Notes: a model not told the origin generated them from the sequence alone. Counted from the stretch's first letter, positions 23,100 through 37,366 are shown. The stretch is 64,000 nt of DNA from Actinotalea endophytica (GCF_025717005.1 NZ_JAOVZU010000005.1:124001-188000); one strand, 5' to 3'. Program-made: numbers and translations.

Positions 23100-24458
23100 T
23101 CAGACGGCGACGAGCTGCAGACCGGAGCCGGCGGCCGACATGGCGTACGAGTCGTCCACGTGGACCACCTGGCGCCCGCGCGCGGTGAGGATCGAGGCGG
23201 CCATCGACGCGCGGTACCCGGCCGCACAGTGCACCCAGACCTCACCCGGCGGCACGTCGTCGATCCGCTCGATCAGCTGGTGCAGCGGGATGTTCACGGC
23301 GCCGTCGACGTGCCCGGCGCGCCACTCCGAGCCACGCCGGACGTCGAGCACGACGACCGGCCGGTGGTGGCGCACCTGGGCCAGATCGGCGAAGGTCGCG
23401 CGGACCTGGGTCCCGATCGGCCCGTCGGTCCAGTCCTCCGGTCGGCCGGTCGCGGCCGCGGCCGGTCGGTCGATCCCGATCCGGACGAGCTCGCGCTGAG
23501 CCTCGGCAACCTCCTCCGGCGTCGCGCCGAGCAGCGTGAGCGGCGTGCCCCACGGGATGAGCCAACCCAGGTAGGTCGAGAACTGACCGTCCAGACCGAT
23601 GTTGATCGTCCCGGGCACGTGGCCCGCGGCGAACGCCGTCCGGGTGCGCAGGTCGACCACCCACTCCCCCGCCTCGAGGCGGCGGCGCAGCTCGGCCTTG
23701 TCCGCGAGGCTCGGGAGCGACAGATCCGGCTCGACCGGCCCGTCGACGTTCCGCGGCGCCATGTGCACGTAGTACGCCGGGTAGTCGTCCAGACCCGCGA
23801 GGATCGTCTCGACGAACGTCTCCTCGTCCTGCGTGAGCGCGGGGTTGAACCGGCGCTCCTGGGCGATCGTGGATCCGGTGGCGCCCTCGGTGGTCGCCGT
23901 CGCCGAGCAGAAGCTTCCGAAGCCGTGGGTCGGCATCACCTGGGTGACGTCGGGCAGGGCCGCCAGCCGGTGCGCCGAGTGGAACTGGTGGTGCGCGAGG
24001 GTCGAGGCGTGGGCCATGCCGAGCAGGTCGGGGCGTCCGGTCGAGCCGTACAGCAGCGATCCACCCGAGAAGACCATCGGCGTCTCGCCCTCGAGCACGT
24101 ACGACAGGTGCGTGAACGTGTGACCCGGGGTGTGCACGACGCGCACGACCATCTCGTCGCCCACCGGCACGACGTCGCCGTCGCGGGTCGGGACCCGCTC
24201 GAAGGAGACCTGGTCGTCGGCGTTGACGTGGTACGCCGCTCCCGTGCGCTCCGCGAGTGCGTAGCCGCCGGTGACGTAGTCGTTGTGGATGTGCGTCTCG
24301 AAGACGTGCGTGATCTGCACGCCCACGCGATCCGCGAGGTCGAGGACGCGGTCGATGTCACGCTGCGGATCGATCACGAACGCGACCCGGCCGTCGTGCA
24401 CCAGGTAGCTGCGGTCCCCGAGCGACGGGGTGTCCAGGGTCAGTACCGTCGGGGTCAT
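23100..24458 (-). CDS. MBL-fold hydrolase with two rhodanese domains (persulfide dioxygenase-like)
   Basis: 452-residue protein of the ETHE1/CstB-like class, which oxidises persulfides and moves sulfane sulfur. The metallo-beta-lactamase part (about residues 1-240) has ETHIHNDYVTGG and HTPGHTFTHLSY, giving the metal-binding histidines. The first rhodanese domain (about 270-350, AFAAGHVPGTINIG) has no visible catalytic cysteine and is probably structural. The second (about 365-452) keeps HCAAGYRAS with Cys near residue 410. The ATG at 24458 has GAGGAGG five bases upstream and lies ten bases after the single-domain rhodanese stop, so the two form an operon behind the CsoR/CstR-type palindrome. 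Sulfide or persulfide detoxification is the most likely role. Confidence 0.87.
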   Translation of the reverse strand: MTPTVLTLDTPSLGDRSYLVHDGRVAFVIDPQRDIDRVLDLADRVGVQITHVFETHIHNDYVTGGYALAERTGAAYHVNADDQVSFERVPTRDGDVVPVGDEMVVRVVHTPGHTFTHLSYVLEGETPMVFSGGSLLYGSTGRPDLLGMAHASTLAHHQFHSAHRLAALPDVTQVMPTHGFGSFCSATATTEGATGSTIAQERRFNPALTQDEETFVETILAGLDDYPAYYVHMAPRNVDGPVEPDLSLPSLADKAELRRRLEAGEWVVDLRTRTAFAAGHVPGTINIGLDGQFSTYLGWLIPWGTPLTLLGATPEEVAEAQRELVRIGIDRPAAAATGRPEDWTDGPIGTQVRATFADLAQVRHHRPVVVLDVRRGSEWRAGHVDGAVNIPLHQLIERIDDVPPGEVWVHCAAGYRASMAASILTARGRQVVHVDDSYAMSAAGSGLQLVAV

Positions 24459-24468
24459 CGTCGCCTCC

Positions 24469-24786
24469 TCAGCGCGCGTCCATGCCGGTGACGACCGAGC
24501 GTCCGGCCATCCGCCACCCGTTGGTGCCACCCGCGACCGAGACCGCGTCGTAGCCGGCCCGCTGGAGCGCGTCGGTGACCACGAGGCTCCGGTTGCCGCT
24601 CGCACAGATGACGTGGATCCGTCCGTCCGTCGGCAGCTCGGCGACCCGCTGCCCGAGCTGGCTCATCGGGACGAGCACGGCCCCGGGGACGTGACCGGCC
24701 ACGTACTCCCCTGGCTCCCGGACGTCGAGGACGTACCCGCCCGCGGCGTGGACCTCGGCGAAGCCCGTGATGTCGATCTCCCGCAC
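24469..24786 (-). CDS. Single-domain rhodanese sulfurtransferase
   Basis: 105-residue rhodanese that carries sulfane sulfur on one cysteine. The fold is complete: VLDVREPGEYVAGHVPGAVLVP, the active-site loop HVICASGNRSLVV with Cys near residue 70, and the terminal block YDAVSVAGGTNGWRMAG. The GTG at 24786 has TGGAGG five bases upstream; an ATG 17 codons earlier lies inside the operator and is unlikely. It is the first gene of a two-gene sulfur operon with the MBL-rhodanese protein. The operator centre is 36 bases before the start. Confidence 0.88.
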   Translation of the reverse strand: MREIDITGFAEVHAAGGYVLDVREPGEYVAGHVPGAVLVPMSQLGQRVAELPTDGRIHVICASGNRSLVVTDALQRAGYDAVSVAGGTNGWRMAGRSVVTGMDAR

Positions 24787-25162
24787 CGTTCCTCCAGATG
24801 TCGTCGTCGTTTGGATACCCCCCGGGGTATGCAACACCTAACTCTGCCCATCGTGACTTTGTTCCGCATCCCGGGCGGCGGGCCTGGCGGACTCCCGAGG
24901 CACCCGAGCGGCCAGGGCAGCTCCGGGTACCCGGCAGCGACGGAGGAACACCGGCCGCGCGGCCTCGCGCGCAGGTTTCACCCGTCTGCACGAGGACCAG
25001 AGCCGTTCGAGTGCGGTATAGGGGCGCCGGGGCCCTTTCACCCGCTCCCCTGGCCGGTGTGGCCCTCGCCAGGCCGGACACTGGAGGTGGAGGGCGTGGA
25101 CCACGTCCTCAGGCGCGCTCGGGACCATCCCCCCGCCCGGAGCGCGGAGAGGCAGTACGTCG
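24787..25162. other. Divergent intergenic region
   Basis: 376 bases between the rhodanese operon (minus) and the 158-residue hypothetical gene (plus). Apart from the CsoR/CstR-type palindrome at 24815-24830 and the ribosome site GGAGAGG before 25163, I see no gene, no further clear hairpin and no known RNA motif. The short stretch just beyond the palindrome (CAACACCTAACTCTGCCC) is relatively AT-rich and may contain promoter elements. Confidence 0.5.
24815..24830. promoter_or_regulatory. CsoR/CstR-type operator before rhodanese operon
   Basis: ATACCCC-CC-GGGGTAT has perfect seven-base arms around a two-base spacer, the form reported for CsoR-family and especially CstR (persulfide-sensing) operators. 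It lies 29-44 bases upstream of the rhodanese GTG at 24786. The genes downstream are of the kind CstR controls. No CsoR-family gene is in the window. Confidence 0.65.
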
Positions 25163-25707: not shown

Positions 25708-28554
25708 TCAGCTGAAGCCGTGCGCCACCCGGGAGCGCTGCTCCTGGGTCTTGAAGAGCCGGAACCGCGGCAGGAACTTCTCCCAGTCGATCAGGTGGGA
25801 GTCGATCTCCGGGCCGTCGATGCAGGCGTGCTTGCGGATCATCTTCCCGTCGACGACGACCGGCACCATGCACGCACCGCACATGCCGGTAGCGTCCACC
25901 ATGATCGAGTTGAGGCTCGCGACGCACGGCACGCCGTAGAGCTTCGTCAGGTCGGACACCGCACGCATCATGAGCGGCGGGCCGATCGTGACGACCTCGG
26001 CGATCGTGCGGCCCTCGCCGCGCTTGTTCGCCTCGAGCATCTCCTCCAGCGGCCCCGTGACGAAGCCGTGGTGGCCGAGGGTGCCGTCGTTGGTGGCGTA
26101 GACGACGTCGAGCTGGTCGCCGTATTCCGCCTTGATCCGCCCGACCCGCTCGTCCTCGCCCGTCCAGAACATCAGGCTGGCGCTGCGGAAGCCGGCGATC
26201 AGCGTCACGTGGTTGCCGGCCTTCAGGTGCTCGCGCATGATCGGGAAGACCGGCGGGAGGCCGAGACCGCCCGCGGTGAACACCACCGTCGAGTCCTTCG
26301 GGTACTCGTGGATCTCGCTCGGACGCCCCAGCGGTCCGGCGATGCCGGCGAAGGCCTCACCGACCTTCATCTGGTTGATCTCCAGCGAGCTCGTCCCGAC
26401 GCCCTGGACGACCAGGCAGATCGTGCCGTCCTCGGTGCTCCAGTCCGCCAGGGTCAGCGGGATCAGCTCACCGTCGGGACGCGGCAGCACGCGGACGAAC
26501 TGCCCGGCCTGCGCGGACTGCGCGATGACCGGCGAGTGGACCACGAACTCGTGGATCCCGTCGCTGAGCTCGGCGGTCGACATGATCCGCTGGGCCGTGG
26601 CGGCCATCTCGGTGTAGGCCTGCGCACCGGAGACCATCGCACCGATCGTCTCGGGAGCGAGGTCGATCGCGCCGACGATCTCGCGCGCAGCCGACTGGCC
26701 GTCGCCCGCCGCGCGGATCGCGGTCGAACCACCGCGAGCCGCGTCGCCACCGGTGTAGACGCCCGGGAGCGAGGTCTCCTGCGAACCGTCGCCGGTGACC
26801 TCGATGGTTCCCCACTTGGAGGTCTGCAGCCGAGGCTCGGAGTCCTTGATGATCGGGTTGGCGTCGTTGCCGAGCGCCATGATCACCAGGTCCGCGCTCA
26901 CGGTCTCGGTCTGACCGGTGGACCGTGGCCGCCGGCGACCGGAGTCGTCAGGCTCGCCGAGCTCCATCACGTCGAGCGTCGTCGCCGTGACGAAGCCGTC
27001 GTCGTTGCCGAGGAACTCCGACGGAGAGCGCAGCACCCGGAGGCCGATGCCCTCCTCGAGCGCGTGGTGCAGCTCCTCCACACGTGCCGGCATCTCGGAC
27101 TGCGTGCGGCGGTAGACGATCGTCACGTTGCCGCCGAGCCGCCGTGCGGTGCGCGCGGCGTCCATCGCGGTGTTGCCGCCACCGATGATCAGGACCTGCT
27201 TGCCCTCGACGTCCGGCAGCGGGGTCTCGTACTCCGGGCTCTGCGCGTGCATGAGGTTGACCCGGGTGAGGAACTCGTTCGCCGACATCACGTTCAGCAG
27301 GTGCTCACCGGGGACGTTCATGAACCGCGGCAGGCCCGCGCCCGACCCGACGAAGATCCGCCAGAAGCCCGCGTCGCGCAGGTCCTGCAGCGTCGCGGTC
27401 TTGCCGACCACGAAGTTCGGCACGAACTTGCCACCGAGCAGCGTGATCTTGTTGACCACGTCGTCGATCAGCTCGTTCGGGAGACGGAACTCGGGAATGC
27501 CGTAGCGCAGCACGCCGCCGAGCGCGTGGAACGCCTCGAAGATCGTGACCGGGAATCCCTCGGCCGCGAGCAGGTAGGCGTTGATCAGGCCGGACGGCCC
27601 GGAACCGACGATCGCCACCGGAGGCTTCTCGGCCCGCTGCCACGGGTCCGGCCAGCTCGCGAACTTCTCGGCGGCGCCGTTCGGGTTCACCAGCTTGTCC
27701 CGCTCGGGCAGGAACCACTCGACCTGACCGATCTGGATCGGGTTCTGCTTGTGCAGGCACACGCCCTGGCACTGCAGCTCCTGCGGGCACACCCGGCCGG
27801 TCACGTCCGGCAGCGGGTTGCTGCCCTCGATCAGCTCGAGGGCGTCCCGGAACCGGCCGTTGCCGATCAGCTCCAGCATCGCGGGGATGTGGATCTTGAC
27901 CGGGCAGCCGCCCTTGGGTTCCTTGTGGTTCGCCAGGAAGATGCCCAGCTCGCACGGCTTCTCGGCGCACTGCTTGTCGCGCAGGGCCTCGAGCCAGATG
28001 AACAGGTCCACGTCCTCGCGGGAGTAGCCGAGGTTCATGTACCCGAGGTAGCCCTGGTTGACCAGGCCGAAGTCCTTGGCCCGCTCCTCCGGCTCGCGGA
28101 TGTGCGGCGGGATGGACACCGAGGCCGGCCAGCCGTCGGAGAGTCCGTCGAACATCGGGTAGCGCTCCGACAGGTGCTTGTCGATCGCCTTGATGAACAT
28201 CCGCTTCTTGCCGAGCGGCAGGTTCCAGACGAACCGCATGAAGAGCACGCTCACGTCGTCGCCGCGGCGGAGCAGGCCCCACAGCGTCTCGGTGAACTCC
28301 TTGCCGAGCTCCGGCTGGGAGAACTCCCAGGCCACCGCGGCCATGCCGTCCGAGATGAACATCTCCCGGAAGGCCGTCGGCTCGGCCAGCAGCCGGCGCC
28401 GCAACAGCTCCATCTGCTGGTGGAACTGCTCCACCTCGTCGGAGTGCTCCAGCTCGGCCAGCTGGGCCGCGCCGGTCTCGACCGCTCCCTGCGCGTCCAG
28501 GTACCTCAGCAGGTTCTCACGCCCCCCGGCAGCCGGGGGCAGGGTCTCGGTCAC
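25708..28554 (-). CDS. NfnB-NfnA-like (SudA-SudB-like) fused NADPH/ferredoxin oxidoreductase
   Basis: 948-residue flavoprotein joining two subunits normally encoded separately. After an N-terminal helical extension of about 200 residues without a recognised domain, the glutamate synthase small-subunit-like part has iron-sulfur cysteines (CPQELQCQGVC near residue 256), an FAD site (AIVGSGPSGLINAYLLAAEG near 315) and an NADP site (IIGGGNTAMDAARTARRLGG near 455). From about residue 665 a ferredoxin-NADP reductase alpha-type module follows (AGQFVRVLP, GGLGLPPVFPI), ending in a 2Fe-2S motif (GMCGACMVP with KHACIDGP). It probably exchanges electrons among ferredoxin, NAD(P)H and perhaps another acceptor; bifurcation is possible but unproven. 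The GTG at 28554 overlaps the nifJ stop (GTGA), so production is coupled to pyruvate:ferredoxin oxidoreductase. Confidence 0.87.
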   Translation of the reverse strand: MTETLPPAAGGRENLLRYLDAQGAVETGAAQLAELEHSDEVEQFHQQMELLRRRLLAEPTAFREMFISDGMAAVAWEFSQPELGKEFTETLWGLLRRGDDVSVLFMRFVWNLPLGKKRMFIKAIDKHLSERYPMFDGLSDGWPASVSIPPHIREPEERAKDFGLVNQGYLGYMNLGYSREDVDLFIWLEALRDKQCAEKPCELGIFLANHKEPKGGCPVKIHIPAMLELIGNGRFRDALELIEGSNPLPDVTGRVCPQELQCQGVCLHKQNPIQIGQVEWFLPERDKLVNPNGAAEKFASWPDPWQRAEKPPVAIVGSGPSGLINAYLLAAEGFPVTIFEAFHALGGVLRYGIPEFRLPNELIDDVVNKITLLGGKFVPNFVVGKTATLQDLRDAGFWRIFVGSGAGLPRFMNVPGEHLLNVMSANEFLTRVNLMHAQSPEYETPLPDVEGKQVLIIGGGNTAMDAARTARRLGGNVTIVYRRTQSEMPARVEELHHALEEGIGLRVLRSPSEFLGNDDGFVTATTLDVMELGEPDDSGRRRPRSTGQTETVSADLVIMALGNDANPIIKDSEPRLQTSKWGTIEVTGDGSQETSLPGVYTGGDAARGGSTAIRAAGDGQSAAREIVGAIDLAPETIGAMVSGAQAYTEMAATAQRIMSTAELSDGIHEFVVHSPVIAQSAQAGQFVRVLPRPDGELIPLTLADWSTEDGTICLVVQGVGTSSLEINQMKVGEAFAGIAGPLGRPSEIHEYPKDSTVVFTAGGLGLPPVFPIMREHLKAGNHVTLIAGFRSASLMFWTGEDERVGRIKAEYGDQLDVVYATNDGTLGHHGFVTGPLEEMLEANKRGEGRTIAEVVTIGPPLMMRAVSDLTKLYGVPCVASLNSIMVDATGMCGACMVPVVVDGKMIRKHACIDGPEIDSHLIDWEKFLPRFRLFKTQEQRSRVAHGFS

Positions 28555-31500
28555 TTGATGATCTCCGCGTCGCACGTGGCCTTGACCCGCTCGATCCGGG
28601 CCTGCAGCTCCGGGGTGACCTGGACCTTGTCCAGCGCACCCTCCTTCATCTTCGCCACCGTGCGGGCCTCGCCGTCGATGACCTGGGTGACCTTCTCGAA
28701 GAACATCGGCAGCTCCTGGTAGCAGGTGCCGCAGTCGGTGCACTTCGCCTGGTCGGTCGGGTCGAGCCAGACCGCTCGGTCGGCGACCGCGGTGGCCGCC
28801 GGGGCGGCGGCCGGAGCCGCAGCCGGGGCTGCTCCACGGACCGGCACGGGAGCACTCAGCCCGGACGGCGCCTTGCTCGAGGTCGCGAGCTCGGCCATCG
28901 CCCGTGCGATGTCGTCCATCGACGTCTCGCGCAGCGTCATCGCCTCGTCGTAGCGAGCCGTGATCGTCGCGAGGTCGCCGTCGTGCAGCGCGGTCAGCTG
29001 GTCCTCGTGCATGCCCGAGAGGTACTGCAGGATCTGCCAGTACCGCCGCCGGTCCTCGACGAGTGCCACGACCTGCCCCGAGCACTGCACCTTCATCAGG
29101 TGACGGTCCTCGTCGGTGGCGTAGATGAACGGCACCTTGCCCTCACGGTCGGCGACCTCGAGCTCGACGAACTCGTCGATCGGCACCGCGTTCGCCTCGT
29201 CCGCCGGCTTGAGCGGCCGGAACTGCTTCTTGAACCGCGTCTCGCCGAGGGCGAACTCCGCCGGGGTGAGCGACGTGGTCATCAGCTGCACCTGACCCGC
29301 CTCGTCGAGGTACTCGAGAGTCGTGTCGGTCCAGGTCTTGTCCGGATCGGGGTTGCCGTCGAGCGAGAACCAGTCGTACAGCGTCTTCCCGCGACGCGGG
29401 TCGTGCACGAACAGCGGGCTCATCCGGGACTCCACCGCGAGCCGCGACCGCGCCGCGGACGCCGCCTCGGCGATGCCGTGCTCGGAACCGCACGGCGTGT
29501 AGGTGTCCATCACTGCCGGACCCTCGGCGTAGCTGAGGAAGTCCATCGAGCTCTTCAGGAAGTGCCCGTGCATCGACGTCGACGTCGAGGCGACGTAGAC
29601 GTTCGGGTGGAACGACGCCAGCAGCCCGAGCTCCTTGCGGGACTCGTGCTTGCCGTCGTGCGCCCCGCCGAACCGCGACAGGTCGGAGTCCTGGCCGGTG
29701 AAGCTCGCCGTGGACGCCTGGCCGCCGGTGTTGGAGTAGGCACCGGAGTTCAGCACCATCACCTTGATCGGCGTCTCGGACGCCAGGATGCGGCTCATCG
29801 CGCCGAACCCGATGTCGTAGCTCGCGCCGTCGCCGCCGATCGTCATGATCGTCGGCATCATGTCCAGCTCGCTCTGCGTGAGCCGGTCCCAGGTCAGGCG
29901 CTGCATGACCTTCTCGTGGCGCTCGGGGTCGTACGCGTCGTCGATCTCGAGCCGCGCGGTGCGCATCGCGCGCACCTCGTCGACCAGGTCGTGCGCGACG
30001 CCCTCGAAGATGCCCTTCGCCAGCGGCTGAGCGTCCTGGAACAGGCTGTTCACCCACGGGTCGAGGTAGTTGTTGTAGGGCATCGTCGACGCGTAGACGC
30101 TCGAGCAGCCGGTCGAGTTCGCGACGATCGTCGAGGCAGGGCCTTCGCCGGTCGGGCCGGACTCGACCAGGTACAGCCGGCGCTCGAGCGTCGAGATCAG
30201 CGAGGCGACCCGCTCACGGCGCACCGTCTCGGACGGGTCCAGCGCGGCGAGCTTGTCCTCGAGGCCGCCGAGCAGCTCGGTGAGGGCCTTCTCGTGCGCG
30301 TCGCGCCGCTCCTCGCCGAGGGCGTGGCTCATCGACATCACCAGACGGATCGCGGTGACCTCGCCACAGCCGCGGCACGCGCCGTGACCACCGGTCGTCG
30401 AGTAGTAGTTGTCGTGGTCGAGCAGCAGCCGCTTGAGGTCACCCTCGGGCGACGTGGAGCCCTCGTAGAACCGCGCGGGCGTGTTCGGCAGCGCCGAGAG
30501 CAGCTCGAAGCGGTCCTGCAGGTTCGCCAGGAGCGTGTCGTCCTGGTCCACCGGCGTCAGCGCGCCGGGGCCGCAGACCTCGGTGCACTCCAGGCAGCCC
30601 GTGCACTTCCACGGGTCGATCGTCGCGCTGAACAGGCCGCCGCTGCCCGGCTTGGCCTTCTCCATCGCGTCGAAGTAGGGCCGGGTGCGCGCGACCGGGA
30701 AGGTCGCGAGCTTCTCGACCAGCGCGGACAGCGAACGGGCGAACGTCGCGCTCTCCGACTCCAGACCGGCACCGACCTGGGCGACCAGGTCGTGGAACGC
30801 CGGGGCGTCCTTCTCGGCCAGGTAGCGCTCCCGCACGCCCGCCGCCAGCGGGTACACCTGGGTCCGCAGCGAGGCGCGCTGCGCCTCCGGCAGGTCCAGC
30901 GTGTCGATCGTGGTCAGCAGCAGCGTGTGCAGCTCGTGGACGGTGTTCGGGATGGCGGCGTCCGGGCAGACCAGCGCGCACTCCATGCAGCCGGTGCACA
31001 GGTCGGGGTCGAACGCCGGAACCGTCCGGCGGAACAGGCCCTTGTCCTTCGCGCCGGCGGACCCCGCCGGCATGAACAGGCCGACACCCGGCAGCACCGG
31101 TGCCTCGCCGATCGTCCCCTCGCGGAACGGCCGCGCCACGATGTCCTCGTAGTAGGCCGGGTCGAACAGCGCGCTCGCGGTCCCGCTGTTGGACGAGCAC
31201 ATCTCCTGCGACACGGTCACGGGGCGCAGCATCCGGGCCGGGGCGGCCTCGGCGTCGATCGCGACCAGCTCGGGCGCGTCGTAGTCCACGGCGACGACGG
31301 CGTCCACCGCGTCGCGGATGACCGCCATGTTGCCCTCGACGACGGCCTCGCCCTTGGACCCGAACTTCTTCGAGATCTGCGCGCGGACCTTCTCCAGGAT
31401 GGCGTCCTGCGAGGCGCCCTTCGCGACCCGGTCGACGTGACCGGCGACCGCGCCGATGAACGCGATGCCCATCATGCGGGTCTCGAGCTCGGGCTTCGGG

Positions 31501-33539
31501 GCGTGCTTCTTGGCCACCGTGAAGGCGTCCATGATCATCAGGCGGATCTTGCGCTCACGGATCGTGGTGCGCGCGTACTTCGGCAGCTGACGCCAGAAGT
31601 CGGCCGGGCTGAGGTCGGACTGGATGATCAGCGTGCCACCCTCGACCAGACCCTTGATCGGGTTGGTGTGCACGAACGCCTTGTGGTCGGGCGAGAGCAC
31701 GACCTCGACGTCCTCGAGCTCGGCGTTCGTGATGAGCACGGGCTCGGGGCTGAGGGTGATGTAGTAGTTCGTCGGCGCGCCGGACTTCTCCGAGCCGTAC
31801 TTCGGGGCGGCCTTCGAGTGCATCCCGAGGACGCCGGACAGGATGTCCGTGAGCAGCTTGCCGGTCGCGATCGTGCCGTAGCCGCCGACCGAGTGGAACC
31901 GGATGCGCATCGCCTCGTCGGGCAGCAGCTGCGGGTTCTCCTTGGTCACCAGCGCCATGTGCTCGGTGCTCGGGTAGGCGGCCTTGAGACGCGCCTCGAT
32001 CTCGGCCATCTGCGGGGTCGGGTTCTTCGAGAAGAACTGCGAGCCCAGGTAGACCAACGGGGCGGCGGTGCCGTCGATCATCGCCTCGTAGGCGGCGACC
32101 AGGTGGCGCGGCTGCACGTCGTGGCCGCCGAGACCGAAGATCGCGGTGGTGACGTGCGGCAGCGCGGCCAGCGCCGGCAGCTCGTGGGCGGCGCCGTCGG
32201 CGTTGGCCCGGGCCTTGAACAGCGCGTTGCTGACCAGGCTGGTGAGCGCGGTCTGGTCGGACCGCTCGAGGACCATGACGCTCTTCTTGCCGGCCAGGGC
32301 CTCGACGATTTCGGCCTCGGGGAACGGCGAGAGCATCTTGACCGAGACGACGCCCACCTTGTGCCCGAGCGAGCGCAGGTACGGGACGACCGCGCGCACG
32401 TCGTCGGTGATCGAGCCGAGGCCGACCATGACGTAGTCGGCGTCCTCGACGTCGTAGGTCATCACGGGGCCGTACTCACGACCCGTGAGCTCGGCGTACT
32501 CGGCCATCGCCTGGCGCGCGAGCCTCGGCACCTCGGAGGCGAAGTGCGTGCGGTGGTCGACCGCACCGGCCTGGAAGTCGGGCTGGTTCTGCACCGGGCC
32601 GGTGAGGCCCGGGTTGTCCACGTCCACCAGCGCGGGAACGAGCTGACGGGTGCCCTTGCGGGGGGCGTTGCGCCACTGGCGCGACCAGGGCTTGTGCAGC
32701 TCGGTCGGCAGCCAGGCGAGGGTCGGTGCGACCAGCTCGCCGGCGTCGTCCGCCTCGATCGCGTCGGCGTTGGTGCCCAGGTGCGCCAGCAGGGCGTCCA
32801 TCGCGCCCTCGACCACGTCGTCCCGGTGCCGCTCGAGCCAGGAGGTGAGCTGGGCCACGCGGCCCTTGGCGCCGAACAGGATCTCCTGCGCCACGGTCGG
32901 GCAGTCGACGCGGCTGGTGGGGTCACCCACGTAGGCCCGCAGCATCTCGGGCTCGGGCAGGACCATCTCCGACATCATGTGGCTCGTCGAGAAGCCGTCG
33001 AACGAGTTCGCGACCGGGATGAGGGACAACGCCGAGGTGCGGTACGAGATCGCCGCGAGGTCGGCCGCCTCCTGCGGGTTCGAGCCGAACAGGATCGTGT
33101 AGCCGGACGGCAGGAGCGCGTACACGTCGTCGTGGCCGGCCATGACGTTGAGCGAGTGCTTCGACACCACACGGGCCGCGCACTGCAGCACGAAGCCGCC
33201 GATCTTCTTGCCGACACTGACGTAGTGCGACTCGAGGGCGTACAGGATGCCCTGGCTGGACGACGCGTTCGAGACGTACTGACCACCCGTGAGCGCGGCA
33301 CCGAGCGCACCACTCTGAGCGGAGTGCTCACCCTCCGTCTCGAAGAAGAACGGGTGCTTGCCCCACACGTTGACGTTGCCCTCGGCTCGCGCGGCCTCGA
33401 AGAGCTCGGAGATCTCCGTGGACGGCGTGATCGGGTAACCGATCACCCCGCCGCAAACGTGACGCATGACGTACGCCACGGCTCCGTTACCGTTCAGAAC
33501 GGTCGGCTTGCCGGGGTACTGAGGCTGCTGAGAGGTCAT
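28551..33539 (-). CDS. nifJ: Pyruvate:ferredoxin (flavodoxin) oxidoreductase with C-terminal ferredoxin
   Basis: 1662-residue enzyme, far longer than the usual 1170-1200. It converts pyruvate and CoA to acetyl-CoA and CO2 and reduces ferredoxin. Visible parts: N-terminal GYPITPSTE (pyruvate site), NSFDGFSTSHMM, two 4Fe-4S motifs CTGCMECALVCP (near residue 850) and CTGCLECTEVCGPG (near 983), the proximal-cluster region GACRGCGEV (near 1055), and the thiamine diphosphate block GGDGASYDIGFG with NSGAYSNTGGQ (near 1235). The two ferredoxin motifs are about 130 residues apart, roughly 75 more than in Desulfovibrio PFOR. After an Ala/Pro linker the last 75 residues form an extra ferredoxin (KCTDCGTCYQELP with a later Cys in ATCDAEI). 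Start ATG at 33539 has a weak ribosome site. It probably acts in anaerobic or microaerobic pyruvate metabolism. Confidence 0.94.
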   Translation of the reverse strand: MTSQQPQYPGKPTVLNGNGAVAYVMRHVCGGVIGYPITPSTEISELFEAARAEGNVNVWGKHPFFFETEGEHSAQSGALGAALTGGQYVSNASSSQGILYALESHYVSVGKKIGGFVLQCAARVVSKHSLNVMAGHDDVYALLPSGYTILFGSNPQEAADLAAISYRTSALSLIPVANSFDGFSTSHMMSEMVLPEPEMLRAYVGDPTSRVDCPTVAQEILFGAKGRVAQLTSWLERHRDDVVEGAMDALLAHLGTNADAIEADDAGELVAPTLAWLPTELHKPWSRQWRNAPRKGTRQLVPALVDVDNPGLTGPVQNQPDFQAGAVDHRTHFASEVPRLARQAMAEYAELTGREYGPVMTYDVEDADYVMVGLGSITDDVRAVVPYLRSLGHKVGVVSVKMLSPFPEAEIVEALAGKKSVMVLERSDQTALTSLVSNALFKARANADGAAHELPALAALPHVTTAIFGLGGHDVQPRHLVAAYEAMIDGTAAPLVYLGSQFFSKNPTPQMAEIEARLKAAYPSTEHMALVTKENPQLLPDEAMRIRFHSVGGYGTIATGKLLTDILSGVLGMHSKAAPKYGSEKSGAPTNYYITLSPEPVLITNAELEDVEVVLSPDHKAFVHTNPIKGLVEGGTLIIQSDLSPADFWRQLPKYARTTIRERKIRLMIMDAFTVAKKHAPKPELETRMMGIAFIGAVAGHVDRVAKGASQDAILEKVRAQISKKFGSKGEAVVEGNMAVIRDAVDAVVAVDYDAPELVAIDAEAAPARMLRPVTVSQEMCSSNSGTASALFDPAYYEDIVARPFREGTIGEAPVLPGVGLFMPAGSAGAKDKGLFRRTVPAFDPDLCTGCMECALVCPDAAIPNTVHELHTLLLTTIDTLDLPEAQRASLRTQVYPLAAGVRERYLAEKDAPAFHDLVAQVGAGLESESATFARSLSALVEKLATFPVARTRPYFDAMEKAKPGSGGLFSATIDPWKCTGCLECTEVCGPGALTPVDQDDTLLANLQDRFELLSALPNTPARFYEGSTSPEGDLKRLLLDHDNYYSTTGGHGACRGCGEVTAIRLVMSMSHALGEERRDAHEKALTELLGGLEDKLAALDPSETVRRERVASLISTLERRLYLVESGPTGEGPASTIVANSTGCSSVYASTMPYNNYLDPWVNSLFQDAQPLAKGIFEGVAHDLVDEVRAMRTARLEIDDAYDPERHEKVMQRLTWDRLTQSELDMMPTIMTIGGDGASYDIGFGAMSRILASETPIKVMVLNSGAYSNTGGQASTASFTGQDSDLSRFGGAHDGKHESRKELGLLASFHPNVYVASTSTSMHGHFLKSSMDFLSYAEGPAVMDTYTPCGSEHGIAEAASAARSRLAVESRMSPLFVHDPRRGKTLYDWFSLDGNPDPDKTWTDTTLEYLDEAGQVQLMTTSLTPAEFALGETRFKKQFRPLKPADEANAVPIDEFVELEVADREGKVPFIYATDEDRHLMKVQCSGQVVALVEDRRRYWQILQYLSGMHEDQLTALHDGDLATITARYDEAMTLRETSMDDIARAMAELATSSKAPSGLSAPVPVRGAAPAAAPAAAPAATAVADRAVWLDPTDQAKCTDCGTCYQELPMFFEKVTQVIDGEARTVAKMKEGALDKVQVTPELQARIERVKATCDAEIIK

Positions 33540-33870: not shown

Positions 33871-34512
33871 TCAGCGGGCGCCGAAGACCTCGTCGAGGGT
33901 CTCGGCCAGGACCGAGTCGACGACGATCCCGGACGTGGTGTGAGCGCCCAGTCCGGGCGTCGGCATGGCCGCCAGCGCCTCCTTCACGAGCGCGTGGGCC
34001 TGCTCGTCCGAGGTCTCCGCGGTGTCGATCACCAGGTCGAACTGGTTCTCCTTGGCCCAGTCCTTGCCGTAGAACATCCGGACGAACTTACGGCGCATCG
34101 CGTCGTCCGCCTTCACCCGGGTCAGTGCGTCCTCCAGCGGCATCGCGTCGCGTCGGGCGATCCGCTGGGCGCGCCGCTCCAGGGGCGCCTTGATCAGGAC
34201 GTGCAGCGCGTCGGCGTAGTCGGCGAAGAGCGAGAACCCACCACGGCCGAGGATCACGGTGTCCCCCCGCGCGGCGATCGCCTTCATCGTGGCGTCCAGC
34301 ATGTTGATCGTCGTGGTGGCGTCCTCGTCGAACAGCTCCCAGATGCTCGGCGGCTCGTCGTAGATCTTCGACAGCTGCGGGATCCCGTACTGACGCAGCA
34401 CCGAGTCGATCAGCGTCTTGTCGGCGAACGTCCAGCCGAGGTCCTTGGCGAGCGACTTGGCGATCCGGGCGCCGTGGCTGCCCATCTGGCGAGAGACGGT
34501 GACGAGGGTCAT
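33871..34512 (-). CDS. Cytidylate kinase-like family protein (PF13189)
   Basis: 213-residue nucleoside-phosphate kinase-like protein. It begins TLVTVSRQMGSHGARIAKSLAKDLG, where RQMGSHGARIA replaces the usual P-loop GxxGxGKS, the pattern of the cytidylate kinase-like 2 family. Later blocks ILGRGGF and HVLIKAPLERRAQRIARRD fit a kinase lid and core. The canonical Cmk is encoded separately at 55378-56088, so this is not the housekeeping enzyme. Substrate and role are unknown. The ATG at 34512 has AGGAG seven bases upstream. It lies upstream of nifJ on the same strand but with hairpins in the 331-base gap, so it probably has its own transcript. Confidence 0.82.
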   Translation of the reverse strand: MTLVTVSRQMGSHGARIAKSLAKDLGWTFADKTLIDSVLRQYGIPQLSKIYDEPPSIWELFDEDATTTINMLDATMKAIAARGDTVILGRGGFSLFADYADALHVLIKAPLERRAQRIARRDAMPLEDALTRVKADDAMRRKFVRMFYGKDWAKENQFDLVIDTAETSDEQAHALVKEALAAMPTPGLGAHTTSGIVVDSVLAETLDEVFGAR

Positions 34513-34677: not shown

Positions 34678-36048
34678 TCACAGCAGCACACGCTCGCCGT
34701 CCTCGGGGACCACCGTGTGCCACCCCAGCTCGTCGCGGACCCGGCGGGCGAGCGCGCGCGAGGCCCGCACCTCGCCGTGCCAGACGTACACCACGTCCGG
34801 CGGGGCCGGCGTCGCGGCGAGCCACCCCACGATCTCTCCCGCGTCGGCATGGACGGAGAACCCGTGCAGCACCACGACCTCGGCACGGACCGGCACGTAG
34901 CGGCCGTGCATCTTGATCGCCGCGGCGCCGTCCTCGAGGGACCTGCCGCGGGTGCCCTCGGCCTGGTAGCCCACCAGCACCACGGCGTTCCGCTCGTCCG
35001 GCAGCAGGTGCTTGAGGTGGTGCACCACCCGGCCGCCGGTGGCCATGCCGGATGCGGAGACGATGATGCTCGGCCGGTTCGGCGGGTCGAGACCTCGCGA
35101 CTGCGACGCGGTGTGCGCCTCGTGCAGGTCCCCGGGGTCGAGCGCCTCGAGGTCGGTGCCGGCCGCGAGCTCCGGGTCCTGCTCACGTAGCGCGCGCCGG
35201 TAGACCTCGAGAGCCGCCAGGGCCATCGGGCTGTCGACGAACACCGGCACGCGCGGGATCCGCCCCTCCGAGCCCAGGCGACGCAGCGCGTGCAGCAGGA
35301 CCTCGGTGCGGTCCACCGCGAACGCCGGGATGAGCACCGATCCGCCGCGCCCGATGGTCCGGGTGACCACGTCGGCCAGGGCCGCCAGGTCGTCGCCGGC
35401 GTGCCGGCGGTCGCCGTAGGTCGACTCGACCACGATCGCGTCGACCGCGGGCGGTGGTGGCGGAGCTGCGAGCAGCGGGTGGGACGGACGGCCGAGGTCG
35501 CCGCTGACCACGAACCGCCTGCCGCGCGTGGTGACGACGGCCGACGCCGAGCCGAGGATGTGGCCTGCGCTCTGCAGGTGCACCGAGACCTCGGCGCACG
35601 GGCTCACCTCGTCGCCCAGGGCGGTCGGCCGGAACATCGGCAGGCACCGTTCCGCGTCGGCGGTGTCGTACAGCGGACGGGGCGCGGCGTGCCGCGAGTA
35701 GCCGTGCCCGGCGGCGAAGGCGGCGTCCTCCTCCTGCAGGTGGGCGCTGTCACGCAGCACGATCGCGGCGAGCTCGGCCGTCCACCGCGTGGTGACGATC
35801 GGCCCGGCGAAGCCCTGGTCGACCAACGCCGGCAGGTAGCCGCTGTGGTCGAGGTGCGCGTGGGTCAGGACCACCGCGTCGATGCTCGACGCCGGGACCG
35901 GCAGGGGCCTCCAGTTGCGCCGACGCAGCTCGCGCGGCCCCTGGAACAGACCCGCGTCGATCAGGAGGCGACTCTCGCCCGTGTCCACGAGCAGCTTGCT
36001 CCCGGTCACGGTGCCGGCGGCGCCGAGGAACCTCAGGCTGGTGTGCAT
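34678..36048 (-). CDS. MBL-fold/beta-CASP RNase-like protein
   Basis: 456-residue metallo-beta-lactamase protein of the CPSF73/YSH1-like beta-CASP group, whose members cut or trim RNA. The first metal motif is LTHAHLDHSGYLPAL near residue 60; HLQSAGHILGSASAVV and VSGDLGRPSHP supply further ligands. The beta-CASP cap contains ESTYGDRRH, VLIPAFAVDRTE, VDSPMA and SASGMATGGRVVHHL, with HGFSVHADAGE giving the C-terminal histidine. All key residues appear intact. The ATG at 36048 gives the family N-terminus directly (SLRFLGAAGTVTGSK). The target RNA is unknown. It stands alone, with the cytidylate kinase-like gene 165 bases downstream. Confidence 0.9.
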   Translation of the reverse strand: MHTSLRFLGAAGTVTGSKLLVDTGESRLLIDAGLFQGPRELRRRNWRPLPVPASSIDAVVLTHAHLDHSGYLPALVDQGFAGPIVTTRWTAELAAIVLRDSAHLQEEDAAFAAGHGYSRHAAPRPLYDTADAERCLPMFRPTALGDEVSPCAEVSVHLQSAGHILGSASAVVTTRGRRFVVSGDLGRPSHPLLAAPPPPPAVDAIVVESTYGDRRHAGDDLAALADVVTRTIGRGGSVLIPAFAVDRTEVLLHALRRLGSEGRIPRVPVFVDSPMALAALEVYRRALREQDPELAAGTDLEALDPGDLHEAHTASQSRGLDPPNRPSIIVSASGMATGGRVVHHLKHLLPDERNAVVLVGYQAEGTRGRSLEDGAAAIKMHGRYVPVRAEVVVLHGFSVHADAGEIVGWLAATPAPPDVVYVWHGEVRASRALARRVRDELGWHTVVPEDGERVLL

Positions 36049-36280
36049 CGTCGCTCCGACCCGGCCCGCCCGACCCGCGCGCGGGCCTCTCCTCCACGGT
36101 ACTCGGCGACCCGGCGCGGCGGCCCCGATCCGACCAACGATCGCCGGACGAGACAGGTGCGCGATGGGACCGGGCCCACGGCGACGGCCCGGCGTGTCGT
36201 CCGTCCCGCGAAACATGGCGGACCCAGACTCCGGGCTCAACGGCGCCGGACCCCGCCTGCGCCCGAGAAGTGGGAGAAGC

Positions 36281-36556
36281 ATGATCAAGCAGTCCACCGA
36301 CGCCAAGGGCCGCCGGCTCACCTTCGCGCTGCCGACCGAGGCACTGCCCGGTCCGGTCAGTGTCGTCGGGACCTTCAACGACTGGACGCCCGGCAGCCAC
36401 GTGCTGCGACGCCGGTCGAACGGCATGTCGAGCGCGTCCGTCACCGTCCCGGCCGGGACCACGGTGCACTTCCGGTATCTCGCGGACGGCGGCGCCTGGT
36501 TCGACGACACCGAGGCCGACGCGGTCACGGCCGAGGGCAGCTTCGTCAGCGTCTGA
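36281..36556 (+). CDS. Isoamylase early-set (CBM48-like) small protein
   Basis: 91-residue protein consisting of one beta-sandwich related to the N-terminal domain of glycogen branching and debranching enzymes. The signature is PGPVSVVGTFNDWTPGSHVLRRR, then VTVPAGTTVHFRYLADGGAWFDD. The tryptophan and the WFDD edge are the usual carbohydrate-contact residues. Such free-standing domains may bind glycogen or act as a regulator; no function is shown. The ATG at 36281 has GGGAG at good spacing. It converges with the ABC-2 permease gene across a strong hairpin. Confidence 0.85.
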   Translation: MIKQSTDAKGRRLTFALPTEALPGPVSVVGTFNDWTPGSHVLRRRSNGMSSASVTVPAGTTVHFRYLADGGAWFDDTEADAVTAEGSFVSV

Positions 36557-36578
36557 CCGGCGCGACGGGTCGCGACCT

Positions 36579-36614
36579 GTGGTGGCCGGCCGTCCGAAGC
36601 CGACCGGCCACCAC
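36579..36614. terminator. Bidirectional terminator hairpin
   Basis: GTGGTGGCCGG and CCGGCCACCAC form a perfect eleven-base stem between the convergent stops at 36556 and 36617. It should serve both the CBM48-like gene and the ABC exporter operon. Confidence 0.75.
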
Positions 36615-36616
36615 GG

Positions 36617-37366
36617 TCACTCCCAGCGGAACGTCCGCCACGCGACGGCCCCGAAGACCGCCCCGTACCCGAGCAGGAGCAGCAGGGACACCAGCGGCGG
36701 CGCATCGCCACGGACCGTGGCGTTCATCGCCTCGACGGCCGCTCCCGTCGGGATCCAGGAGCTGATGCCCTGGAGCACCTGGGGCATGGCCGGCAACGGC
36801 AACCAGAGGCCCCCGAAGAACGCCAGCGGGAAGAACAGCACGTTCCCCAGAGCCGCCGCGGCGCGACTGGTCCGGGCCACCGCGGCGACCACGAGGCCCA
36901 GCGCGAACAGTGCCCAGGCGGTGAGCAGCAGGACCAGGACGAACGCCGGGACGCGGCTCGGCAGCTGCCCGCCGAGCATCGAACCGACACCCAGGACCAG
37001 CACGACCGCCGCGGCACCGACCACGAGGTTCAGGACGACCTGAGCGCCCAGCAGGCGAGCCGGCGAGACCGGCGTGGTCGCCATCCGTCGCAGCACACCC
37101 AGCTCGCGGTAGGTGGCCAACGGCATCGGCAGACCGATCAGCGCGAGCATCGTCAGGGCCACGACGCACAGCACCGGCAGGTAGGCGTCGAAGACGCTCA
37201 TTCCCCCCGAGCCCGGGATCTCGTCGGCGAACGGGCCGATGTTCCCGAAGATCACCACGAGGATCACCGGCATGCCGAATCCCCAGACGATCCCCACCGG
37301 CTCGCGAATCGCCAGCTTCGCCTCGGTCTGCACGACGCGGGCGAACACACCGCGCGGCGCGCTCAT
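36617..37366 (-). CDS. ABC-2 type exporter permease
   Basis: 249-residue membrane subunit with six predicted helices. Visible features are the amphipathic N-terminus (VVQTEAKLAIREPVG), helices IVWGFGMPVILVVIFG, LPVLCVVALTMLALIGLPMPL and VVLNLVVGAAAVVLVLGVG, and the cytosolic YRELGVLRRMATTPVSPARLLGAQ loop, a conserved element of drug-exporter permeases. The last helices include FFPLAFFGGLWLP. It pairs with the ATPase upstream; its ATG overlaps that stop (ATGA). The exported compound is unknown; related systems give drug or lantibiotic tolerance. Confidence 0.87.
   Translation of the reverse strand: MSAPRGVFARVVQTEAKLAIREPVGIVWGFGMPVILVVIFGNIGPFADEIPGSGGMSVFDAYLPVLCVVALTMLALIGLPMPLATYRELGVLRRMATTPVSPARLLGAQVVLNLVVGAAAVVLVLGVGSMLGGQLPSRVPAFVLVLLLTAWALFALGLVVAAVARTSRAAAALGNVLFFPLAFFGGLWLPLPAMPQVLQGISSWIPTGAAVEAMNATVRGDAPPLVSLLLLLGYGAVFGAVAWRTFRWE

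Follow-up and report, generated by a model that had tools for sequence, protein, structure and literature searches.

A probable pyruvate-oxidising, NADP+-reducing complex of a PFOR with a tethered ferredoxin and a fused Nfn in Actinotalea endophytica

Two overlapping genes of Actinotalea endophytica probably encode a dedicated complex which, as far as conserved sequence features tell, would oxidise pyruvate and reduce NADP+ through a ferredoxin tethered to one of its chains; NADH may contribute as well (confurcation). The genes lie in a stretch of 64,000 nucleotides (the window) from a genome of 4.25 Mb. They encode a long PFOR and a fused Nfn, i.e., a single protein with an NfnL-like and an NfnS-like module (table 1). 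The initial annotation had proposed that this coupled pair moves electrons from pyruvate to NADP, perhaps with bifurcation. The core of this idea is upheld by the conserved overlap of the two genes, their co-occurrence, their co-variation and their reciprocal loss, but the site where the PFOR was thought to dock, near the 2Fe-2S cluster, is not.

Table 1. Features of the PFOR and fused Nfn genes, counted from the first letter of the window
Feature	Position	Strand	Support
Long PFOR-like 2-oxoacid oxidoreductase gene, 1662 aa	28551..33539	-	Full-length homologues at 43 other loci
PFOR core, residues 1-1509: T38, E71, R123, N1270 and three 4Fe-4S Cys sets	29013..33539	-	Alignment to D. africanus and Moorella PFOR
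Low-complexity Ala/Pro-rich linker, residues 1553-1587	28779..28883	-	33-49 aa where delimitable, sequence poorly conserved
C-terminal single 4Fe-4S ferredoxin domain, residues 1588-1662 (C1600, C1603, C1606, C1656)	28554..28778	-	Fer4_15 1.3e-5, Fer4_13 2.9e-5
GTGA stop/start overlap, PFOR/fused Nfn	28551..28554	-	Same -1 overlap at 42 loci including the window
Pattern C fused Nfn (NfnL-NfnS order), 948 aa	25708..28554	-	NCBIfam PRK12779 1698 bits; AlphaFold model pLDDT 80
N-terminal helical extension, residues 1-139; 31-120 proposed as the PFOR-docking part	28138..28554	-	No Pfam/PDB sequence match
NfnL-like module, residues 140-632 (b-FAD, NADP(H), proximal and distal 4Fe-4S)	26659..28137	-	P. 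furiosus NfnL superposition
Altered distal-cluster segment R192-D193-x2-C196-x4-C201-insert-C217-P	27904..27978	-	Motif in 50/50 Pattern C proteins
NfnS-like module, residues 653-948 (a-FAD, NAD(H)-type site, 2Fe-2S D887/C892/C895/C911)	25711..26598	-	P. furiosus NfnS superposition

The coordinates, strand and lengths first given for both genes were borne out by the sequence. The PFOR gene ends in ...AAGTGA and the fused Nfn gene begins at this GTG, which overlaps the TGA, so that the start of the fusion does lie inside the PFOR stop, as had been described. Upstream sequence was present, and the arrangement hence testable, at 61 out of 64 loci fetched for the class of the fused Nfn (Pattern C, see below). 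A long PFOR is located directly upstream and in the same orientation at 57 of these 61, ranging from Actinomycetota to Vibrio. The overlap of the genes is not due to chance, because the exact -1 overlap recurs across phyla, at 42 loci including the window. Among the four loci without an adjacent PFOR, the two of Thiosymbion have a long PFOR elsewhere in the genome.

Whole-genome searches showed the fused Nfn and the long PFOR in the identical 9 out of 121 genomes of Cellulomonadaceae and in the identical 9 out of 150 of Vibrionaceae, with neither of them found alone. Among 197 genomes of Propionibacteriaceae, the fused Nfn is present in 62, the long PFOR in 61 and both in 53. The pairwise distances of the two proteins are correlated (Mantel r = 0.91 for 40 loci; none of 2000 permutations was as high), which is expected from co-inheritance and alone is no proof of contact. 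Between phyla, identity is 60-75%, and the presence of the pair is patchy, its hosts being mostly facultative anaerobes. Patchy presence at this level of identity suggests that the pair was moved as a unit by gene transfer. A search for its carriage on plasmids gave ordinary Nfn-like matches only.

The fused Nfn belongs to an already named yet uncharacterised class. It matches NCBIfam PRK12779 along its full length (1697.8 bits, cut-off 1519; residues 13-947 of 948), a model entitled 'putative bifunctional glutamate synthase subunit beta/2-polyprenylphenol hydroxylase', and no paper naming this model was found in the open-access literature searched. According to Liang et al. 2019 (PMC6405883), Pattern C Nfn have their a-FAD/NAD/2Fe-2S part at the C terminus and are ~200 residues longer; their hosts are Actinobacteria, Alpha- and Gammaproteobacteria, and their properties are uncharacterised in detail. 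In the window, likewise, the NfnL module is N-terminal to the NfnS module and the protein exceeds other fused Nfn by ~200 aa. In the Nfn tree of Poudel et al. 2018 (PMC6085437), one Pattern C Nfn stands at the base; the paper includes the Pattern C protein of Mobiluncus curtisii (ADI67453), and the word PFOR is absent from its main text. The nearest named homologue of the window protein is that of Actinotalea lenta (86-87%).

A Pfam scan of the fused Nfn (Fer4_20, Pyr_redox_2 and DHODB_Fe-S_bind) agrees with the module order that had been read from the sequence, i.e., a GltD/NfnB-like module followed by an FNR/NfnA-like one with a C-terminal 2Fe-2S motif. This order is indeed the reverse of that of the separate NfnA-NfnB pair present elsewhere in the host genome. 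In an AlphaFold model built from 50 homologues (mean pLDDT 80), residues 140-632 superpose on P. furiosus NfnL (5jfc_L; Z 32.9, rmsd 2.6, 447 aligned, 43% identity) and residues 653-948 on P. furiosus NfnS (5jca_S; Z 35.9, rmsd 1.8, 271 aligned). An NADP-type motif, GGGNTAMDAARTARRLGG...VYRRT, is found in the sequence.

Several marks of a bifurcating Nfn are present, namely, the NfnL fold with b-FAD, an NADP(H) site and a Glu-ligated proximal 4Fe-4S cluster, and the NfnS fold with a-FAD and an Asp-ligated 2Fe-2S cluster. In detail, E279 occupies the alignment position of E126 in P. furiosus NfnL, where this Glu ligates the proximal cluster and its replacement (E126C) uncouples the branches (PMC9503767). 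E279 is invariant in 50 sequences, and so are the 2Fe-2S ligands D887, C892, C895 and C911. The NfnS module carries insertions, and its predicted NAD(H)-type site has a nucleotide motif (GG[LV]GLP) which differs from the GGxGxA of most ordinary NfnA.

A further mark of bifurcating Nfn, the all-Cys distal motif C-x2-C-x3..8-C-x3-CP, was found in none of the 50 Pattern C proteins, whereas it is present in all 17 ordinary NfnB, a set that includes the separate NfnB of the host genome and where an R precedes the motif (R-C-x2-C...). In the altered segment of Pattern C, the insert between C201 and C217-P varies in length among the 50 proteins. Alignment of its R-D193 with the ordinary R-C places D193 at the usual position of the first Cys ligand. 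We infer that D193 ligates the distal cluster of the fused Nfn, the alternative being a 3Fe-4S cluster.

The long PFOR shows POR_N, PFOR_II, POR and Fer4 domains in Pfam. Its residues T38, E71, R123 and N1270 align with T31, E64, R114 and N996 of D. africanus PFOR, which, from known structure work, we take to be the ThDP- and pyruvate-binding residues. In 44 homologues, E71, R123, N1270 and all 12 internal cluster Cys are invariant and T38 is nearly so; thus, the ThDP/pyruvate residues and the three 4Fe-4S Cys sets of a PFOR are kept, and the conserved active site points to pyruvate as the probable substrate. The protein stays far under the equivalog cut-off of TIGR02176 (370.7 bits against 911.35) because it is divergent and bears insertions. 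It has the domain order, the ThDP/pyruvate residues and the three internal 4Fe-4S clusters in common with the single-chain PFORs of D. africanus (1B0P) and Moorella (6CIN), but it is ~430-490 aa longer, with internal insertions and the C-terminal ferredoxin. The four Cys of this ferredoxin are invariant in the 44 homologues, and the linker that precedes it is Ala/Pro-rich in most of them. In its sequence, this tail of linker and one-cluster ferredoxin is built like a tethered electron carrier.

The first ~200 residues of the fused Nfn had been noted as matching nothing known. At the level of sequence, this holds for residues ~1-139, for which no match was found among Pfam families or PDB sequence profiles; when they were modelled alone (pLDDT 67, low confidence), the best fold match reached Z 4.0 and none was above. 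It does not hold beyond, because the residues from ~140 superpose on NfnL and leave ~1-139 as the genuinely extra part, and the full length falls within PRK12779. The charge complementarity of the PFOR tail (mean -3.6) and this N-terminal domain (+2.8) was too variable for use and was rejected.

The fused Nfn is found without the long PFOR in ten genomes (nine Propionibacteriaceae and one Austwickia) and can therefore work with something else. These Nfn form three clades kept apart by supported branches in the Nfn-core tree (a quick tree without bootstrap), which are counted as three independent losses of the PFOR. Several of the genomes are draft assemblies and some absences could be gaps; for most of them this is unlikely, because the absences cluster by clade. 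Divergence was scanned in 30-residue windows along the Nfn and corrected for overall divergence. Strong divergence common to all three PFOR-less clades is confined to the windows of residues 31-120 (mean z -3.6, -3.9 and -2.6). Residues 181-210, adjoining the distal cluster, come next (z -1.8), and most of the remaining ones are within ~1 of zero. Dips in a single clade exist outside 31-120, for instance -5.1 at 841-870 in Austwickia. One genome (G672, locus L187) is an exception, as it retains PFOR fragments yet the N-terminus of its Nfn has diverged (z -3.1).

The opposite case, a PFOR without the Nfn, was counted once. Of eight PFOR-only genomes, seven were discarded, being cut at a contig end, and G687 alone is informative. 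Its long PFOR stops at alignment position 1509, and the linker and the ferredoxin tail are absent in every frame downstream.

In the proposed mechanism, the PFOR would turn pyruvate into acetyl-CoA and CO2, as its conserved active-site residues suggest, and the electrons would pass over its three internal 4Fe-4S clusters to the ferredoxin on the flexible C-terminal arm. The arm may dock at the Asp-modified distal 4Fe-4S cluster, aided by the N-terminal helical domain; the sequence change and the reciprocal loss both point there. From this cluster the path would lead through the Glu-ligated proximal cluster and the NfnL FAD to NADP+. As the NfnS module is intact, NADH is plausible as the source of a second electron, and confurcation is possible, by the reaction pyruvate + CoA + NADH + 2 NADP+ -> acetyl-CoA + CO2 + NAD+ + 2 NADPH. 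The reverse direction may also be possible. The most specific form of the model is offered tentatively, i.e., a bacterial pyruvate:NADP+ complex in which the swinging ferredoxin arm of the PFOR plugs into a confurcating Nfn with an Asp-ligated distal cluster and NADPH is made from pyruvate and NADH without free ferredoxin. The docking of the PFOR tail near the 2Fe-2S site, as first suggested, is probably wrong, because in NfnSL the distal 4Fe-4S cluster of NfnL is the ferredoxin exchange point and the 2Fe-2S cluster leads to the S-FAD and NAD+ (PMC9503767). The sequence changes specific to the family affect the N-terminus and the distal cluster.

The same complex could operate without bifurcation, with electrons passing from pyruvate to NADP+ directly and NfnS acting as a second port of the pyridine-nucleotide or quinone type. 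This explanation overlaps with the preferred one and deserves attention, even if it is rather doubtful. The altered nucleotide motif and the insertions of the NfnS module would fit it, and so would the non-NAD (quinol) branch proposed for a PFOR/Nfn-like set of Propionibacterium (PMC7650540); furthermore, PMC6405883 warns that bifurcation and function cannot be read from sequence. Against it, both carboxylate ligands shared with bifurcating NfnSL, that of the proximal 4Fe-4S cluster and that of the 2Fe-2S cluster, are invariant here, and E126C uncouples the branches in P. furiosus (PMC9503767). It is unlikely that the two proteins are operon partners without a stable complex, where the PFOR reduces a soluble ferredoxin, the fused Nfn uses it and the coupling of the genes serves stoichiometry only. 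Free ferredoxin does serve ordinary Nfn (PMC9503767) and the fused Nfn survives in the ten PFOR-less genomes, but the conserved tail ferredoxin, the diverged N-terminal domain of the PFOR-less clades and the tail missing from an Nfn-less PFOR all argue against this explanation.

The pair might also work as a pyruvate synthase, the Nfn oxidising NADPH with NAD+ as the high-potential acceptor and driving carboxylation by the PFOR, for instance in acetate assimilation by phototrophs. Both enzymes are in principle reversible and the hosts are often purple phototrophs or storage-polymer bacteria. However, the pair is also widespread in fermenting Actinomycetota and Vibrionaceae, and this suits the oxidative direction, so that synthesis as the main function seems improbable. 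By far the least credible explanation, to which the automatic annotation of the GltD-like module and the NCBIfam title would lead, makes the fusion a small subunit of glutamate synthase or a sulfide dehydrogenase. The adjoining partner is the long PFOR and not GltB, TIGR01316 gives 408.8 bits (cut-off 471.75) and the best structural matches are NfnL and NfnS; sulfide dehydrogenase was rejected on scores below curated cut-offs and, again, on the PFOR as partner.

The fusion has both folds, the FAD/NADP motifs, the proximal Glu and the 2Fe-2S Asp in common with the bifurcating NfnSL/NfnAB transhydrogenases (P. furiosus 5JCA and T. maritima 4YLF). It differs from them in its single chain, reversed order, N-terminal extension and distal Asp with insert, and would have a dedicated PFOR where they use free ferredoxin. 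Its architecture, NfnB then NfnA, is that of the Pattern C proteins of PMC6405883 and PMC6085437. The accessible text of the former does not describe the near-obligate long PFOR, the tethered ferredoxin, the distal Asp or the reciprocal loss; PFOR is among the abbreviations in the legend of its Fig. 2. As far as the open-access literature tells, the dedicated tethered-ferredoxin pairing and the reciprocal loss are new here, and the literature searched contained no laboratory study of the pair.

The pyruvate:NADP+ oxidoreductase (PNO) of Euglena and Cryptosporidium is a PFOR fused to a cytochrome P450 reductase-like FMN/FAD module. The pair resembles PNO in that PFOR chemistry would be linked directly to NADP+, but in the pair this task would fall to an Nfn on a chain of its own; a Pfam scan found no P450-reductase-like FMN/FAD domain in either protein. 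For Propionibacterium, a bifurcating complex of PFOR, an NfnB-like and a DHOD-like protein was postulated, and a PFOR knock-out severely crippled growth (PMC7650540). The NfnA role is there given to the dihydroorotate-dehydrogenase-like protein, and these genes may be different ones from the pair of the window. Since they are described as separate genes, the study is a precedent for the idea and not a test of this pair.

Nfn normally draws on a free ferredoxin common to many enzymes, and tethered delivery by a PFOR, if true, would be a channelled version of it. In that case, a facultative anaerobe could obtain NADPH from pyruvate independently of a pool of free ferredoxin, and a first physiological role would be given to the Pattern C Nfn, flagged by earlier authors as needing study. 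This could explain anaerobic NADPH formation from pyruvate in some facultative bacteria, among them phototrophs and polymer storers similar to Accumulibacter. Candidate docking elements of the pair are now named.

The long PFOR is an enzyme separate from the ordinary 1198-aa PFOR of the host genome. The latter is located beside a NifB-like radical-SAM gene and apparent other nif genes (L122, G000:C14:83000-96000), and the host may therefore fix nitrogen. A second PFOR/Nfn-type neighbourhood of the same genome (L123, G000:C20:121000-134000) consists of an NfnA-NfnB pair with the ordinary distal motif, directly before a third 2-oxoacid:ferredoxin oxidoreductase.

Other genes of the minus strand surround the pair in the window. 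At 23100-24837, a metallo-beta-lactamase/rhodanese protein overlaps a single rhodanese, probably for sulfur handling; in Actinotalea lenta (L039; 70-76% identity), both genes flank the pair on the same side, and they were not found at other loci. A Cytidylate_kin2-family kinase (33871-34512) lies just upstream of the PFOR and was not found beside the pair at other loci. The RNase-like beta-CASP metallo-beta-lactamase at 34678-36711, whose listed ORF start may be too far upstream, has the type VII CRISPR Cas14 model as its best NCBIfam match (341 bits, far below the cut-off of 800) and is probably an ordinary beta-CASP nuclease.

Fifty upstream regions contained no Rex box, and the window contained neither a Rex nor an FNR-type box. 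FNR-type boxes (0.05 expected) are present in 6 out of the 50 regions, all from Alphaproteobacteria (L049, L050, L052, L073, L051 and L089), and the four from Rhodopseudomonas are identical. The palindrome, TTGAY-N4-RTCAA, is placed 112-259 bases before the PFOR start, hinting at anaerobic control at these six loci.
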